Positions 8,391-14,217 of a stretch of 39,404 nucleotides of DNA are shown here, piece by piece (position 1 is the first letter of the stretch; each line of letters starts with the position of its first letter). The notes beneath the pieces are model-generated. The model ran no database searches, was not told the DNA's origin, and was given only the letters and a program-made list of their open reading frames with translations. The DNA comes from Thermodesulfovibrio sp. (GTDB lineage: Bacteria > Nitrospirota > Thermodesulfovibrionia > Thermodesulfovibrionales > UBA6898), in NCBI GenBank assembly GCA_013824615.1, contig PNOC01000032.1, forward strand, positions 1 to 39,404, read 5' to 3'. The position numbers and the translations under genes are program-made.

Positions 8391-10528
8391 GTAAACTCTT
8401 TAAGCAGGATGTAAACAATGCCCTTGAAAACGCGAACCTCGCGGGTGCGCTGACACGGTTTTCCGAGGCCTATGTCGTGAGCCGCGCAAAGGCATATGAA
8501 GGCATAGACTTTGAGGCCTTACGGACCCGTATATCTGAGATAAAAGGGTATGCAGCCGGACACTTCGGCGAACTGGCCGAAGAATTTACAGAAAATGCCG
8601 AGGCAAAAGGGGCAAAGGTCTTCAGGGCAAACAGCCCGGAGAAGGTGAGGGACTACATCCTGGCCCTTGCGAGCGAGTACGGCGTAAAGCGCGTTGTGAA
8701 GTCCAAGTCCATGGCTTCCGAGGAGATCCACCTCAACGCCCATCTTGAGAAGAACGGCATATCCGTAAGAGAGACTGACCTCGGAGAATGGATTATTCAG
8801 CTCTCAGGCCAGAAGCCTTCTCATATGGTGATGCCGGCGATCCACCTGACAAAGGAAGAGGTGGCAGACATATTCAGCAAAGAAACCGGCATAGGCAATG
8901 AGCAGCAGAGCAGCGAGATACCGCGCCTTGTGAAGCTGGCCCGCGATAACATGCGGTCCAAATTCCTTGAGGCCGACATGGGCATCTCAGGGGCCAACAT
9001 GGCTGTTGCCGAGACAGGCACGATCGTGATGGTGACAAACGAAGGCAACGGCCGCATGGTGACCACACTCCCGAAGATCCATGTTGCACTCATAGGCATT
9101 GAGAAGCTCATCCCGAAATTTGCGGACATTGCACCCATCCTCACGGCCCTGCCCAGGAGCGCCACAGGCCAGCTCCTGACCAGCTACGTCACCATGATCA
9201 CCGGTCCGGTGCCGAACACTGACGGCTCTATGAAGGATCTTCATATCATACTCATGGACAACAGACGGACTGAAATGGCAGGGGACCCGAAATTCAAACA
9301 GGCGCTCCAGTGCATCCGCTGCGCCTCCTGTCTTAATGTCTGCCCGGTCTTCCGTCTTGTCGGCGGCCATGTATTCGGCCATGTCTATACCGGCGGAATC
9401 GGGACTATCCTTACCGCATGGTTCAGCGAGATGAAGAAGTCGGAGGAGATTCAGGGCCTCTGCATCCAGTGCGGCAGGTGCAGAGAAATCTGCCCGGCAA
9501 AGATCGATATTCCCGGTCTCATTGTGGAGATCAGACGAAACCTCGTCAAAGGGGAAGGACAATCCCTGGCCCAGAAGACGATCTATGCTGTCGTGAATAA
9601 CCGGAAGCTCTTCCATGGCATGCTCAGGACAGCCGCCATTGCCCAAAAACCTTTTGCAAAGGAGGGTTTTATACGCCATCTTCCGTCATTTCTTTCGGAT
9701 ATGACTGAATTCAGAAGTCTCCCTGCCATCGCAGCAGTCCCCTTCAGGGACAGGGTGAAGACTATCAGGCAGCCTGCGACAAAAGAGAAGGCTGCCTTCT
9801 TTGCAGGATGTCTCATCGACTTTGCGTACCCTGAGATCGGCGAGGCCGTTATAAAAGTATTGAACAAGGCAGGGATTGGGGTAATTTTCCCTGATGACCA
9901 GACCTGCTGCGGCGCGCCCGCTCATTACAGCGGAGCCTTTGACGTTGCGGCACAGAACGCGGTCGACAATATCAGAGCCCTTGCGCGTGATGACGTGAAG
10001 TATGTTGTCTCGGCATGCCCCACCTGCACGGCCTTCCTGAAATTTGAGTTCATCAGCGACCTTGAAAACCTGAGTATGAATCAGCATCTTGCTGCGGCGC
10101 AGACTCTCTCTGAAAAGACCATGGATTTCTCGTCTTTTATAAAAAGATTGGTCGATGAGGGGAGGCTCACCCTGCACGAAGGCGCCGAGGCCGGGAAGAT
10201 TACGTACCATGATTCCTGCCACCTCAAGAGGACCCTTAAGGTTACCCGTGTGCCCAGGGAACTTCTCAGGCAATGCGGCCATGAAATTTCCGAGATGTTC
10301 GAGTCAGACATCTGCTGCGGCATGGGAGGCTCATACAGTCTTAAGAACCCGGAGATATCATCTCATATCCTGAAGCGGAAGCTTGAAAATATTAAAAAAA
10401 CAGGAGTTTCATGCGTTGCCATGGACTGTCCTGCCTGTGTCCTGCAGATCAGAGGAGGCTTTGACAAGGAAGGCAGCGGGATCAGGGTGAAGCATACGGC
10501 AGAGTTATTGGCCGATACCCTGAAATAG
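8387..10528 (+). CDS. Fused LldF-LldE (LutB-LutA) Fe-S lactate oxidation protein
   Basis: This 713-residue protein fuses the two Fe-S subunits of the lactate oxidation complex. Residues about 60-300 form a LUD domain (MGISGANMAVAETGTIVMVTNEGN, YVTMITGP). Next come two 4Fe-4S motifs, CIRCASCLNVCPVF and CIQCGRCREICPAKIDIP. The last 250 residues are an LldE/LutA region with two CCG cysteine-rich modules: TCCGAPAHYS, ACPTCTAF, DSCHLKR, ICCGMGGSYS, DCPACVLQI. In Bacillus these are separate lutA and lutB; fused versions are known in sulfate reducers. Electrons would pass to quinone or a membrane partner. No lactate permease is adjacent. Confidence 0.92.
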   Translation: MSKLFKQDVNNALENANLAGALTRFSEAYVVSRAKAYEGIDFEALRTRISEIKGYAAGHFGELAEEFTENAEAKGAKVFRANSPEKVRDYILALASEYGVKRVVKSKSMASEEIHLNAHLEKNGISVRETDLGEWIIQLSGQKPSHMVMPAIHLTKEEVADIFSKETGIGNEQQSSEIPRLVKLARDNMRSKFLEADMGISGANMAVAETGTIVMVTNEGNGRMVTTLPKIHVALIGIEKLIPKFADIAPILTALPRSATGQLLTSYVTMITGPVPNTDGSMKDLHIILMDNRRTEMAGDPKFKQALQCIRCASCLNVCPVFRLVGGHVFGHVYTGGIGTILTAWFSEMKKSEEIQGLCIQCGRCREICPAKIDIPGLIVEIRRNLVKGEGQSLAQKTIYAVVNNRKLFHGMLRTAAIAQKPFAKEGFIRHLPSFLSDMTEFRSLPAIAAVPFRDRVKTIRQPATKEKAAFFAGCLIDFAYPEIGEAVIKVLNKAGIGVIFPDDQTCCGAPAHYSGAFDVAAQNAVDNIRALARDDVKYVVSACPTCTAFLKFEFISDLENLSMNQHLAAAQTLSEKTMDFSSFIKRLVDEGRLTLHEGAEAGKITYHDSCHLKRTLKVTRVPRELLRQCGHEISEMFESDICCGMGGSYSLKNPEISSHILKRKLENIKKTGVSCVAMDCPACVLQIRGGFDKEGSGIRVKHTAELLADTLK

Positions 10529-10602
10529 CGCTTGGGGGTAAAACCTGTACAAAACAAAAAAGGCTTGCCCGAAAATATAGCGATATATTTCAGCATTACA
10601 AC

Positions 10603-11106
10603 CTATTTTGACGGTATTACCACGTCATCATCTTCATATATTCCCTGTTCCGCTTTCTGATGACATGCCTTGCAGTTGCCACTTGACCTTATGGTGGGTC
10701 TCTTGAAAATATCCGGATTAATTTTTCTATGCTTCTTCTGTATATACTGCAGATCTGTAACTCTTACAGGGGTAGTGCTGCTTGGGATGGACCTAACGAT
10801 TTTTCTTGACCTCTCAGCCGAACTGTTTTCAGCACTCTCCCGAACCAAGTAGGCTTTAATCTGCTCTTTGGAAGCTTTATCGAGCTTCAGGTCTCCTCCC
10901 GAATGCGCTCCCTCAATAATCTTTGTCCAGGAACGCTGGGGCAGTAATCCTGGCTGATACGCAAAATGACAACTGCCACATGACTTCTTGTATAGCTCAT
11001 TTGTAACAGGGGCGATGCCTTTATGTTCCTTTTCTTTGTGGTCATCTGCTCCCGCATAAGAGCAAAATGATGCTACCAGAACCAATACCAAGGCTATACT
11101 TCTCAT
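10603..11106 (-). CDS. DHC-type dihaem cytochrome c
   Basis: The 167-residue precursor has a signal peptide (residues 1-20, ending AGA-DD) and two haem c motifs, CGSCH at 43-47 and CKACH at 145-149. The first site is followed by FAYQPGLLP, characteristic of the DHC dihaem cytochrome family (partner of the haem protein SHP in Rhodobacter), and the tail AEQGIYEDDDVVIPSK also fits. It should be a periplasmic electron carrier. GGAGGTG precedes the ATG by about 5 bases. No SHP-like or cytochrome b561-like partner gene is adjacent; it is convergent with the lactate operon. Confidence 0.9.
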   Translation of the reverse strand: MRSIALVLVLVASFCSYAGADDHKEKEHKGIAPVTNELYKKSCGSCHFAYQPGLLPQRSWTKIIEGAHSGGDLKLDKASKEQIKAYLVRESAENSSAERSRKIVRSIPSSTTPVRVTDLQYIQKKHRKINPDIFKRPTIRSSGNCKACHQKAEQGIYEDDDVVIPSK

Positions 11107-11276
11107 CGCACACCTCCAAATAATTAGGTTAATGGTTTAATGAATCTCATCACCAGCCCGATTAAATTCCGATAAATTATATCCTTTGTTATTTTACAGC
11201 TCTATCAACTACAGCTAATTATACCAAAGGATTCTCGGTTATAATTCCTTATATCTAATCATTCTTAGGGGGCATC

Positions 11277-11387
11277 ATGGCAATCGAAGCAAAAATTGAA
11301 GGCAATAAACTTATCTTTATTGGGAGGAGGGGAAATATTATTTTTTTGGTACTGCTGTGTAGCGGGTACGAAGGAAGCTGTGGTTAG
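11277..11387 (+). CDS. Short ORF, possible truncated remnant
   Basis: ATG 11277, preceded by AGGGGG, opens a 36-codon frame beginning MAIEAKIEGNKL and ending in a hydrophobic stretch and TAG. The first 13 residues look like the start of a normal small soluble protein, after which composition changes, so this may be a gene cut off by rearrangement. I do not recognise a family. A TATAAT at 11240-11245 could be its -10. It ends at the edge of the HU remnant on the other strand. Confidence 0.3.
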   Translation: MAIEAKIEGNKLIFIGRRGNIIFLVLLCSGYEGSCG

Positions 11388-11632
11388 GCTTTGGTTTCTT
11401 GCAGGATGATTGCATGCGAAATATTACTGCATTTTCTTTTTGGATTTCTCGCCTGTCTTGCCTTCCAGGTCTTGACACGGAAGTTGCCAAAGCCCCTTAT
11501 CTCAACCTTATCGCCTTTAAGGAGAGCCTGTTTCATGCTCTCCAATACAGTATCTACAATGATCTCGGTCTGAGTTCTTATAAGGGATTCAGCCTTTTCA
11601 GCAAGTTTACCTATCAGTACCGATATTGTTAC
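11384..11632 (-). pseudogene. Decayed HU/IHF-family DNA-binding protein
   Basis: The translated frame carries a clear HU/IHF core: IGKLAEKAE, IIVDTVLESMKQALLKGDKVEIRGFGNFRV, then KARQARNP, the DNA-binding arm tip. Both ends are damaged. Homology starts at codon 11632-11630, which is GTA, where a start codon is expected, six bases after AAAGGA. After RNP the frame gives an unrelated tail instead of the usual arm and final helix; a one-base shift near 11430 gives ENAVIFRM, slightly more HU-like. The upstream end coincides with the stop of the ubiquitin-like gene. An open frame continues up to 11716 inside that gene, so a longer translated product cannot be excluded. Confidence 0.55.
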
Positions 11633-12045
11633 GACTGTTCCTTTAATAGAACACGTTTCTTCAAATAACGAACTGACCCAATACCCGCTATCACCATGAA
11701 AAAAATCATCCCCCATTCATTCAGGGTAGGCACACTCTGAGGGGATGCTGCAACAGCATTTACGACAAGATGAAGCGTGGATTCCTTCTGTATATTATAA
11801 TCTGACAGTGTGCGACCATCCTCAAGTGTTTTTCCTGCAAATATTAAGGTTTGCTGGGCAACAGGTATTCCCTCTTTATCCTGAATTTTTGCCTTTACAT
11901 TTTCTATTGAATCACTTGGTTCAACGTCCAGTGTAATGGTCTTGCCTGCTACTGTTTTGACAAATATCTGCATGGCATCCGCATTAGATACGCCAAGCAA
12001 AAGGATGCAGCTTAATCCGATTATTGTGATTGTTAATCTATTCAT
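11629..12045 (-). CDS. Exported ubiquitin with IPTL-CTERM-like tail
   Basis: The 138-residue product has three parts. Residues 1-24 are a signal peptide ending SNADA. Residues 25-94 are ubiquitin: by hand alignment 62 of the first 70 positions equal human ubiquitin, with all seven lysines (6, 11, 27, 29, 33, 48, 63) and Ile44, His68 and Val70 kept. Differences include L8V, T9A, R42T and Q49T. The LRLRGG tail is absent, replaced by [10 protein letters not shown]. Residues 105-127 are VPTLNEWG plus a hydrophobic segment, then LKKR, matching the IPTL-CTERM surface-sorting pattern. It therefore cannot be conjugated by the normal C-terminal route and is probably surface anchored. GGAGG precedes the ATG. 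The origin is plausibly lateral transfer from a eukaryote. Confidence 0.9.
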
Positions 12046-12393
12046 TATTTCTCCTCCGAACTACAGGGCTTTATAAAAGTGTTTTTGTATTATCTGACTA
12101 TCTAGTGTCAAAAACAAGAGGGAATTGTCGTTAAATTTTAACAACAGGACCATGACCCAGTAATATTCCTCTATTAAAGTATAAGTGTAGGTTGAACAGG
12201 TTTTTCTGACTCTCCTTCGGTTTTGCCCTCAGACCGTTCTATTGAGATTGAACAGGAGTTTGGCTGTGCAGTGGATGAGGGTCATTTCCTCTATTAAACA
12301 AAAACCGTGAACAGCTTAAAGTCTGTTCACGGTTTGTTCACGGTCTTTTTGAGACTTTCATGAAGCTAACTACTTGATTTAACACCAATATTT
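12046..12393. other. Intergenic region with 13-base direct repeats and a micro-ORF
   Basis: TTCCTCTATTAAA occurs at 12166-12178 and again at 12286-12298, and TTGAACAGG also occurs twice between them. On the minus strand the second copy reads as GAGGAA before ATG 12285, opening an 18-codon frame to TGA at 12229 that starts MTLIHCTAKLL. This looks like a leftover 5' end of a gene, but I cannot name the family securely. No intact gene is seen. Confidence 0.35.
12299..12335 (-). terminator. Rho-independent terminator after tRNA-Leu
   Basis: AAACCGTGAACAG (12302-12314) and CTGTTCACGGTTT (12323-12335) form a perfect 13-bp stem with an 8-base loop. On the minus strand the stem is followed by TTTTTG, so it would end transcripts coming from the tRNA-Leu gene. 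Confidence 0.8.
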
Positions 12394-12480
12394 TGGTGCC
12401 GAAGGGGGGACTCGAACCCCCACAGCGTTTCCACCGCTAGAACCTGAATCTAGTGCGTCTGCCAATTCCGCCACTTCGGC
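12394..12480 (-). tRNA. tRNA-Leu (anticodon CAG)
   Basis: Read on the minus strand this is an 87-base class II tRNA with acceptor stem GCCGAAG/CTTCGGC, D-arm, anticodon stem CTAGA/TCTAG, loop TTCAGGT (anticodon CAG at 12446-12444), a long variable arm, GGTTCGAGTCC in the T-arm and an encoded CCA end. Confidence 0.95.
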
Positions 12481-12501
12481 AAGTCTAAAACGTTCTCAAT
12501 A

Positions 12502-12530
12502 AAAAAATCCTGCACGAAACAGGATTTTTT
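12502..12530 (-). terminator. Rho-independent terminator after the DsbC-like gene
   Basis: AAAAAATCCTG (12502-12512) pairs with CAGGATTTTTT (12520-12530) around a 7-base loop. On the minus strand the stem is followed by a T run and lies 23 bases past the DsbC-like stop; the flanking A and T runs could let it act in both directions. Confidence 0.8.
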
Positions 12531-12553
12531 ATTGCTGCAAAACAAACTACAAA

Positions 12554-13327
12554 TTATTTTTTATCAACAGCTTCGATGATCTTATCTGCGTCAACAGCAC
12601 CCGGAATCTGCTTTCCATCAGGGAAGATGATATTCGGCGTCCCGCTGATGCCCAGTTTTTCAGCAAGCTTTATGTTTTCATCAATAGCCTTGGTATCACA
12701 CTTCGGATCAGCTATCTTCTTCTTTGCAAAAGCATCCTCAAGCAGTGACACAGAATTCTCGCACATAATCGTCTTCGATTTCCTGCCGGCATCCTGGTGC
12801 ATCGGCAGGGGGAAGAGCATGACATAGAAGGCTATGTCCTTTCTCTTCGTAAGCACTATTTTCATCTGTTCATGCAGTTTCCCGCAGTAGGGACAGTCAG
12901 GGTCAGAGAAGACGATCACCTTGTTCTTGGCATTCTTGTCTCCCATGACCAGTGCATTGCCAAGGGGAATGGATGATACATCAATCTTGTTAATCTTTTC
13001 GTAACTTACCTGCGTAAAATTTGTTTTGGTCTTTATCCCGAATATGTTGCCGGCAATCAGGTTTTTCTTTGAATAGTCGATATACATGATGCCTTTTTTG
13101 TTTCCGGACTCCATGGCCACTTCCCATAGGCCGCTGACAGGACCGTCCTTGACTTCAAGAATCTTTATATCCGGAACAATCTCCTTCAGGACATCTTTTG
13201 CCTGATCGGCATTCAGGGTATGACATTTCGTGCAAGCCTGCTCGCTTTTTGCGTAGGCGGAGGCATTCTGATACCCGGCGGTTATTGCTAATCCTATTGT
13301 CAGAGCTGATATAAGTAATTTTTTCAT
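12554..13327 (-). CDS. dsbC: DsbC/DsbG-like thiol-disulfide isomerase with N-terminal CxxCH
   Basis: The 257-residue periplasmic protein has a signal peptide (1-24) and a DsbC-type thioredoxin domain with active site CPYC at 145-148 in VFSDPDCPYCGKLH. It also has the DsbC-type second cysteine pair (in IMCENS and DPKCD) and the cis-proline loop SGTPNIIF. The linker region VSSIPLGNALVMG is typical. Unusually, residues 32-36 read CTKCH, a haem c-type motif close to the mature N-terminus where DsbC has its dimerisation domain. It could bind haem, a metal, or form a second redox pair. The role would be shuffling disulfides, perhaps during cytochrome c maturation. It stands alone, with its own terminator. 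Confidence 0.88.
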   Translation of the reverse strand: MKKLLISALTIGLAITAGYQNASAYAKSEQACTKCHTLNADQAKDVLKEIVPDIKILEVKDGPVSGLWEVAMESGNKKGIMYIDYSKKNLIAGNIFGIKTKTNFTQVSYEKINKIDVSSIPLGNALVMGDKNAKNKVIVFSDPDCPYCGKLHEQMKIVLTKRKDIAFYVMLFPLPMHQDAGRKSKTIMCENSVSLLEDAFAKKKIADPKCDTKAIDENIKLAEKLGISGTPNIIFPDGKQIPGAVDADKIIEAVDKK

Positions 13328-13418
13328 AGTGTGATTTTACCATCATTAATCATAAAAAGTAAAGAAACCGGGCATGTCTGCCAGCCCTCACGGATATTTA
13401 GTGCCGGACATTTCGTGA

Positions 13419-13448
13419 TTGAATCATTTTTTCGTCATCTGATATAAT
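13419..13448 (+). promoter_or_regulatory. Sigma70-type promoter of the MoeB/ThiF-like gene
   Basis: TTGAAT (13419-13424), an 18-base spacer and a perfect TATAAT (13443-13448) lie 28 bases upstream of ATG 13477. Confidence 0.6.
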
Positions 13449-13476
13449 TCAGTTATTTTTCAACGAGGCATAACTT

Positions 13477-14217
13477 ATGGAATTTACCCAGGAAGAGCTT
13501 AACCGGTACAACCGGCAGATGATGATGGAGGGCTGGGGGCTTGAGACCCAGGAGAAAATTAAGAACTCAACGGTCTTCATCGCGGGTGCCGGAGGCCTGG
13601 GCTCGCCGGTTTCGATTTATCTTGCCGTGGCTGGAGTCGGCAATATCAGGATCTGCGACTTTGACGCCCCCGACTGGTCAAACCTTAACCGGCAGATACT
13701 CCATAACCATAACAGAATCGGCATAAACAAGGCAGTTTCTGCAGAGCAGACACTCTCGGAGCTTAATCCTCATATTAACATTGAAGCTATTACTGACAAG
13801 ATTGTGGCAGAGAACGTCGATGAGCTGGTGGGGAATGCCGATCTGATACTTGACTGCATGGATAATTTCCCCACCCGGTATCTCCTGAATGAATGCGCCA
13901 TCAGAAAAAATATTCCCCTGGTCCACGGCAGCATCTGGGGACTCGACGGGAGGCTCACCCTTATCAAATCTCCTGAAACGCCTTGTCTGAGATGCTTTTT
14001 CCCTGAATCACCACCGAAAGAGGTCTTTCCGGTGCTCGGGGCAACCCCCGGGGTCATCGGGACGCTTCAGGCTATGGAGGCCCTCAAATATCTCTCCGGT
14101 ATCGGCAAGGGATTGAAGGGCAAACTTCTGGTATGGTCAGGGAATGATATGAGCTTCAGGACTTTCAAAGGATTCAGAGATCCGGATTGCCCGGCCTGCG
14201 GCTCACAGCGGTCGTAA
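13477..14217 (+). CDS. HesA/MoeB/ThiF family adenylyltransferase
   Basis: The 246-residue protein is an E1-like enzyme that adenylates the C-terminal glycine of a small sulfur-carrier protein such as MoaD or ThiS. It begins with the family block YNRQMMMEGWG, then shows the nucleotide loop AGAGGLGSP, the DFDAPDWSNLNRQ segment with catalytic arginine and aspartate, LDCMDNFPTRYLLN, and two CxxC zinc pairs, CLRC and CPAC. There is no rhodanese domain. Which carrier it serves is unclear because no moaD, thiS or thiamine gene is adjacent. The nearby ubiquitin lacks a terminal GG, so it is not an obvious substrate. Confidence 0.9.
   Translation: MEFTQEELNRYNRQMMMEGWGLETQEKIKNSTVFIAGAGGLGSPVSIYLAVAGVGNIRICDFDAPDWSNLNRQILHNHNRIGINKAVSAEQTLSELNPHINIEAITDKIVAENVDELVGNADLILDCMDNFPTRYLLNECAIRKNIPLVHGSIWGLDGRLTLIKSPETPCLRCFFPESPPKEVFPVLGATPGVIGTLQAMEALKYLSGIGKGLKGKLLVWSGNDMSFRTFKGFRDPDCPACGSQRS

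Follow-up and report, generated by a model that had tools for sequence, protein, structure and literature searches.

Predicted sorting of a bacterial ubiquitin gene product

The 39,404-nucleotide contig PNOC01000032.1 of Thermodesulfovibrio sp. (Nitrospirota; assembly GCA_013824615.1), taken over its whole length and referred to below as the window, encodes on its minus strand a 138-residue protein in which a Sec signal peptide precedes 70 residues of ubiquitin, followed by a linker of 10 residues and an IPTL-CTERM tail. We consider it an evenly balanced proposition that this protein is a horizontally acquired, exported, non-conjugating ubiquitin that is shown at or released from the cell surface and acts by non-covalent binding. 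The reading frame lies exactly at the positions given in a preliminary description of the stretch (11629-12045), which had left the strand unstated; the plus strand over the same span is full of stops. Since only ubiquitin and a short linker are left after removal of the signal peptide and the tail, ubiquitin is the cargo of this protein and not an accessory.

Membership in the ubiquitin family was confirmed with the Pfam profile PF00240 (97.6 bits versus a cut-off of 25.4). Alignment with residues 1-70 of human ubiquitin gave 62 of 70 identical positions and retention of all seven lysines (K6, K11, K27, K29, K33, K48, K63), in agreement with the preliminary description, which had put the match at about 62 residues. 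The substitutions are L8V, T9A, E16D, T22S, P38V, D39A, R42T and Q49T, while the I44, H68 and V70 positions are retained. In an AlphaFold2 model the ubiquitin domain (pLDDT of about 95) is followed by one long C-terminal helix (residues 110-137); the model superimposes on the solved ubiquitin 8htc_B with 0.5 Å over 74 columns, and its best matches in the PDB are ubiquitins. The mature part of the protein contains no cysteine.

R42 and R72 of ubiquitin are residues that contact the E1 enzyme. Both arginines are gone here, with T42 and N72 standing at their positions, and VNAVAA occupies the place of LRLRGG, so that residues 71-76 are replaced and the C-terminal Gly-Gly (75-76) is lost. Judging from these replacements, conjugation of this ubiquitin should be impossible. 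At the other end of the domain, the junction ADA/MQIF places the putative cleavage site exactly before ubiquitin Met1, as seen by inspection.

The sorting tail and exosortase H

The signal peptide, the loss of RLRGG and the VPTLNEWG motif followed by a hydrophobic and a basic stretch, all named in the preliminary description, are present in the sequence. VPTLNEWG occupies residues 105-112, the modeled helix follows, and the protein ends in the basic residues RYLKKR; the IPTL-CTERM profile TIGR04174 is passed narrowly (20.9 bits versus a cut-off of 20.5). It had been suggested that the genome be searched for a sorting enzyme and other IPTL-CTERM proteins, and both were found. The product of an exosortase H gene (G000:C26:45306-45770; 93.4 bits versus a cut-off of 86) has the stretches around Cys, Arg and His that an exosortase should have, and at least four other IPTL proteins of the genome score above the cut-off in a profile search. 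One of these, encoded at L003, ends in an almost identical tail that has 54 of 72 bases in common with that of the ubiquitin gene, which indicates that the sorting tail is in the genome's own style.

A scan of the GTDB species genomes revealed 381 loci that encode a relative, and the best 80 of these, closest to the query, were retained. The presence of exosortase H tracks the IPTL type of exported ubiquitin: among 47 genomes with an exported ubiquitin, in which IPTL-like tails were classed by one motif pattern, it is present in 5 of 6 with a ubiquitin-IPTL protein versus 2 of 41 with other C-termini (one-sided Fisher p = 8e-5, with two Brevundimonas genomes that are not independent, several incomplete genomes and a search that in part predates the motif count). 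The exosortase H of L014 scores 82.7 bits, slightly below the cut-off, and one of the two exceptions with exosortase H (L069) ends in IPTLSQMG on inspection.

Selection on the ubiquitin part

A second ubiquitin-IPTL gene with a similar tail is located on contig C2 of the genome, which is 3.6 Mb in size and listed as 100% complete with 0.93% contamination. The two copies have in common the context GAGGAGAAATAATG at the ribosome-binding site as well as the start region GAGGAGAAATAATGAATA. Because a second, diverged ubiquitin copy is found in the same genome, chance and a frame artefact are excluded. Over the 39 shared ubiquitin codons, nonsynonymous divergence (dN) is 0.068 and synonymous divergence (dS) is 1.11, and the corresponding values for the signal peptide are 0.25 and 1.17. 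That dN is far below dS over the shared ubiquitin codons shows purifying selection on the ubiquitin part after the copies parted. An element of 96 bp with inverted ends (GGTCAGRCTTGAYTATTGACA; L133:9043-9138, at about 27 kb of G000:C2) interrupts the second copy inside ubiquitin and replaces the second part of the domain.

The relatives L019 and L024 use another codon at 41 of 67 unchanged residues and differ by 2 amino acid changes, with 1 of 46 exposed ubiquitin sites altered. In several pairs of relatives, exposed positions are conserved as well as buried ones, an assignment that we take from general knowledge of ubiquitin structure, and positions 39, 42, 49 and a few others often vary. Across 79 relatives, K6, K27, K29, K33, D58 and H68 are retained in 99-100%, while D39, R42 and Q49 drift (68-71%). 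In this sample, which is biased to the query, the pattern speaks for selection on the ubiquitin surface, with constraint loosened around the conjugation face.

Exported ubiquitins across GTDB

The 80 best loci belong to at least 14 phyla, with Methanothrix and cultured isolates among them. A signal-peptidase-like site stands immediately before ubiquitin Met1 in 76 of 79 relatives, a count biased by one search peptide that carried an alanine before Met1. A family-profile search, free of this bias, of the Akkermansiaceae, the family of L022, gave 17 matches in 16 of 195 genomes; in 15 of the 17 the signal peptide ends directly before, or at most two residues from, the ubiquitin start, and the other two look eukaryote-like, with Gly-Gly and no signal peptide. 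The C-termini behind ubiquitin form 36 groups that blastp does not join and include autotransporter barrels (23 of 78), IPTL tails (6 to 8), S-layer homology (SLH) anchors (4), type IX secretion system (T9SS) tails (2) and others. The preliminary description had rightly set the architecture apart from that of the exported ubiquitin of Bacteroides fragilis (BfUbb), which has no anchor, but the design is not a one-off, since IPTL-tailed ubiquitin is also present in at least three further phyla.

When 398 genomes were drawn from the Pseudomonadota, the phylum of L033, the seed L033 was the sole match, which makes exported ubiquitin a rare and scattered trait. A tree of the ubiquitin domain, proposed earlier as a check, resolves almost nothing on its 72 columns (no starred branch), and the IPTL members do not cluster in it beyond shuffles (6 changes versus 6.8); neither a single nor a multiple origin is therefore shown.

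A phage search gave no match to the ubiquitin query, and a plasmid search gave three matches, none spanning most of it. Three IMG/VR contigs listed as viral (L116, L117, L118) carry a Brevundimonas-like ubiquitin-IPTL gene; they represent bacterial DNA called viral by mistake or else the edge of a prophage. The mobilizable Ruminococcus albus plasmid pRUMAL01 carries a gene annotated 'ubiquitin family protein' (L157:2971-3711), with a dockerin protein and a phosphatidylinositol phospholipase C encoded nearby. Four tandem ubiquitins without signal peptide in a Nitrospinota bin (L073:2847-3815) and a bare ubiquitin without signal peptide on very AT-rich DNA (L134) are probably eukaryotic or viral DNA within bins.

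A gene for a SETD3/LSMT-like SET-domain methyltransferase adjoins seven ubiquitin loci with two anchor types, namely ubiquitin-autotransporter-like loci and one ubiquitin-IPTL locus, L074 (Table 1). Pfam (no match) and PDB sequence searches with this protein gave nothing useful. Its model (pLDDT 82.7, from only seven sequences) matches SETD3 with a Z of 12.2 and 4.9 Å over 274 residues, clearly above unrelated rows, and the enzyme might methylate lysines of the adjoining ubiquitin. No relatives of it were found in viral contigs or on plasmids. The gene is absent from the window and from the fetched stretches of its genome, the rest of which was not searched.

Genomic neighborhood

The ubiquitin protein is absent from 60 relatives ranging from the same genus to the same order, and any match to PF00240 occurs in just 2 of 396 genomes of the phylum, the other one being a bare ubiquitin on AT-rich DNA. 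Comparison with four same-genus genomes showed that tRNA-Leu and DsbC are conserved, as are MoeB, Lnt and PrfB in most of them where the compared stretch reaches. In these stretches, neither the ubiquitin gene nor its remaining neighbors beyond tRNA-Leu are matched, with the exception of a weak match to another IHF-like gene. The ubiquitin gene sits in a variable, non-syntenic stretch 3' of tRNA-Leu, and the 3' side of a tRNA gene is a common landing place of acquired DNA. The GC content is 40-44% over window positions 10500-13500 versus 51-57% on most of either side; as this dip takes in the conserved DsbC gene, it gives no clean island border.

The terminator-like hairpin between tRNA-Leu and the ubiquitin gene (Table 1) suggests that the latter may have a separate transcript. 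A consensus scan found no sigma-70-like promoter on the strand of the gene. An IHF/HU-like reading frame (11384-11716, minus strand) overlaps the end of the ubiquitin gene; it covers just profile positions 3-64 of 90 and looks truncated.

A MoeB/ThiF-type E1-like adenylyltransferase is encoded 1.4 kb from the ubiquitin gene (13477-14217, plus strand). It was rejected as an activating partner since same-genus genomes without the ubiquitin also keep it close to DsbC, and the absence of Gly-Gly is a further ground against such a role; its position is probably a coincidence. A search of the genome for an E2 gave no match, and the controls likewise remained without a match. In the neighbor-gene search, the neighbors found in the window were not recurrent elsewhere, save for a ThiF-fold gene near L069.

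Table 1. Features of the ubiquitin gene region and SET-like genes at other ubiquitin loci. Positions without a locus name are those of the window.
Feature	Position	Strand	Basis
Exported ubiquitin reading frame with IPTL-CTERM sorting tail, 138 aa (predicted)	11629-12045	minus	sequence, Pfam and TIGR04174 profiles
Signal peptide, residues 1-24, signal-peptidase-I-type site ADA before ubiquitin Met1	11974-12045	minus	by eye, alignment of relatives
Ubiquitin domain, residues 25-94 (ubiquitin 1-70)	11764-11973	minus	Pfam profile, alignment, model
Linker of 10 residues replacing ubiquitin LRLRGG	11734-11763	minus	sequence
IPTL-CTERM tail, 34 aa: VPTLNEWG motif, transmembrane helix, basic end	11632-11733	minus	TIGR04174, model
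Ribosome-binding site GGAGGAG	12051-12057	minus	sequence; strong, shortly before ATG
Terminator-like hairpin of 13 pairs with a T run behind, between tRNA-Leu and ubiquitin gene	12302-12335	minus	consensus scan
tRNA-Leu(CAG), synteny edge with same-genus genomes; ubiquitin gene on its 3' side	12394-12480	minus	genome comparison
SET-like gene	L032:426-1433		
SET-like gene	L035:3774-4763		
SET-like gene	L038:3609-4595		
SET-like gene	L039:200-1186		
SET-like gene	L045:3750-4751		
SET-like gene	L074:3798-4790		
SET-like gene	L083:6252-7247		

Proposed mechanism and alternatives

In the mechanism that we propose, Sec would export the ubiquitin-IPTL precursor, signal peptidase I would free ubiquitin Met1, and exosortase H would cut at the IPTL motif and join the product to the envelope. 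Nearly pure ubiquitin would then be displayed on the cell surface or released from there, and its conserved face may bind a partner non-covalently, with no tagging role. Such a partner could reside in a competing bacterium, as for BfUbb, or in a eukaryotic grazer. The sequence and the gene content of the genome support the putative export, cleavage and sorting steps, whereas the role in binding is inferred. Several points weigh against this proposal. Both the processing by exosortase H and the final location are predicted, and the margin over the TIGR04174 cut-off is only 0.4 bits. The neighbor-gene search found no conserved partner gene beside the ubiquitin gene. The conservation figures, obtained on the query's nearest relatives, are inflated, and the broken second copy indicates that function is not always kept.

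An antibacterial toxin like BfUbb, held by the tail until its release and then entering competing related strains as free ubiquitin to block a target, is an unlikely alternative. BfUbb is an antibacterial toxin whose synthetic 76-residue form kills B. fragilis strains, an activity that the preliminary description had left unmentioned; its cleavage site likewise lies exactly before Met1 and its terminal glycine is missing (PMC5705921). The distribution among relatives is patchy here too. However, the sorting tail would retain the protein rather than release it, the terminal cysteine of BfUbb (PMC3352274) has no counterpart anywhere in the mature part, and no immunity-like neighbor recurred in the neighbor-gene search.

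We judge it rather improbable that ubiquitin is merely a tough, quick-folding N-terminal block on exported proteins. Its position as first mature domain before some 36 unrelated C-terminal groups is what a general solubility block would show, but in the protein studied here there is nothing to cap, and exposed residues are fixed despite heavy silent change in L019 and L024. Since purifying selection extends to the exposed face, the earlier suggestion that the protein may simply use the stable fold loses weight.

It is quite improbable that the protein serves in a eukaryotic grazer or host as a decoy for the ubiquitin cascade or as its suicide inhibitor. Ubiquitination in HeLa extract was inhibited by BfUbb, which in vitro bound human E1 and can block it through its C-terminal cysteine (PMC3352274), and our protein retains the I44, H68 and V70 positions and all lysines. 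It lacks that cysteine, however, as well as Gly-Gly, R42 and R72, and an anchored protein would need to reach the eukaryotic cytosol.

That the gene is decaying or unexpressed, with no present function, seems very improbable. The interrupted second copy, the truncated IHF-like gene next to it, the missing sigma-70-like promoter and the 60 relatives that live without the gene would fit such a state, but the frame is intact, the ribosome-binding site is strong, the sorting tail is native and purifying selection acted between the two copies. An assembly chimera or eukaryotic contamination is largely refuted and can hardly be entertained: although some metagenome bins do contain eukaryote-like ubiquitins that lack a signal peptide (L073, L134, L140, L146), a bacterial signal peptide and sorting tail share one frame here, a diverged copy lies on another contig, the tail matches those of further proteins in the genome, and the same design is seen in isolates of other taxa.

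Beyond the surface-displayed binding ubiquitin proposed for this genome, we tentatively suggest, with somewhat more doubt than confidence, that exported ubiquitin may be a widespread, unrecognized surface module of bacteria and some archaea. It would place native ubiquitin as a free outer tip on each lineage's own anchor (autotransporter, IPTL, SLH, T9SS and others) and be selected as a binding surface; in some Beta- and Gammaproteobacteria it would travel with the SETD3/LSMT-like SET methyltransferase, a possible modifier of its lysines. Ubiquitin is commonly presented as a eukaryotic protein, yet the relatives inspected among the 381 GTDB loci are mostly exported, with several anchors. Should selection be preserving the surface of ubiquitin, bacteria would use ubiquitin extracellularly as a binding or antagonism module, a question that could be tested in cultured isolates of Dyella, Brevundimonas, Neptunomonas and Marinobacterium.

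Comparison with known systems

A 2017 paper called B. fragilis 'one of a few bacteria' that possess a eukaryote-like ubiquitin (PMC5705921), and BfUbb is the sole exported bacterial ubiquitin that we found to have been tested. In the open-access literature, to which our search was confined, we found no paper joining ubiquitin and IPTL-CTERM and no experimental study of the GTDB exported ubiquitins (autotransporter, IPTL, Dyella, pRUMAL01). The breadth of the class appears to be undescribed there, subscription papers being outside the search.

The protein described here resembles BfUbb in its eukaryote-like ubiquitin, a signal-peptidase-I signal peptide cut before Met1 (here as predicted), the lack of Gly-Gly and a patchy acquisition. 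Whereas BfUbb is a free, secreted protein of 76 residues that ends in cysteine, has no anchor and is 63% identical to human ubiquitin, our protein is identical at 62 of 70 positions, lacks cysteine in its mature part and is equipped with a tail for membrane insertion and sorting. With eukaryotic ubiquitin it shares the fold, the seven lysines and the I44, H68 and V70 positions, but it lacks Gly-Gly, R42 and R72 and is predicted to be exported and non-conjugatable.

Other exported ubiquitins in GTDB, such as the ubiquitin-autotransporters (L038, L045, L083), the ubiquitin-IPTL proteins of Brevundimonas (L015, L020) and the free ubiquitins of Dyella (L059, L077, L087), likewise have a signal peptide directly before Met1 and high identity to eukaryotic ubiquitin; as a class they and the 'ubiquitin family protein' of pRUMAL01 differ from ours in having other C-terminal anchors or none. 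Like the substrates of exosortase H (XrtH; TIGR04174, TIGR04177), our protein combines an N-terminal signal peptide with a VPTLNEWG-helix-basic tail in a genome that encodes exosortase H and several substrates, and unlike other IPTL-CTERM/XrtH substrates its cargo is ubiquitin. Exported bacterial ubiquitin is already known from BfUbb; the form with predicted exosortase sorting is new.
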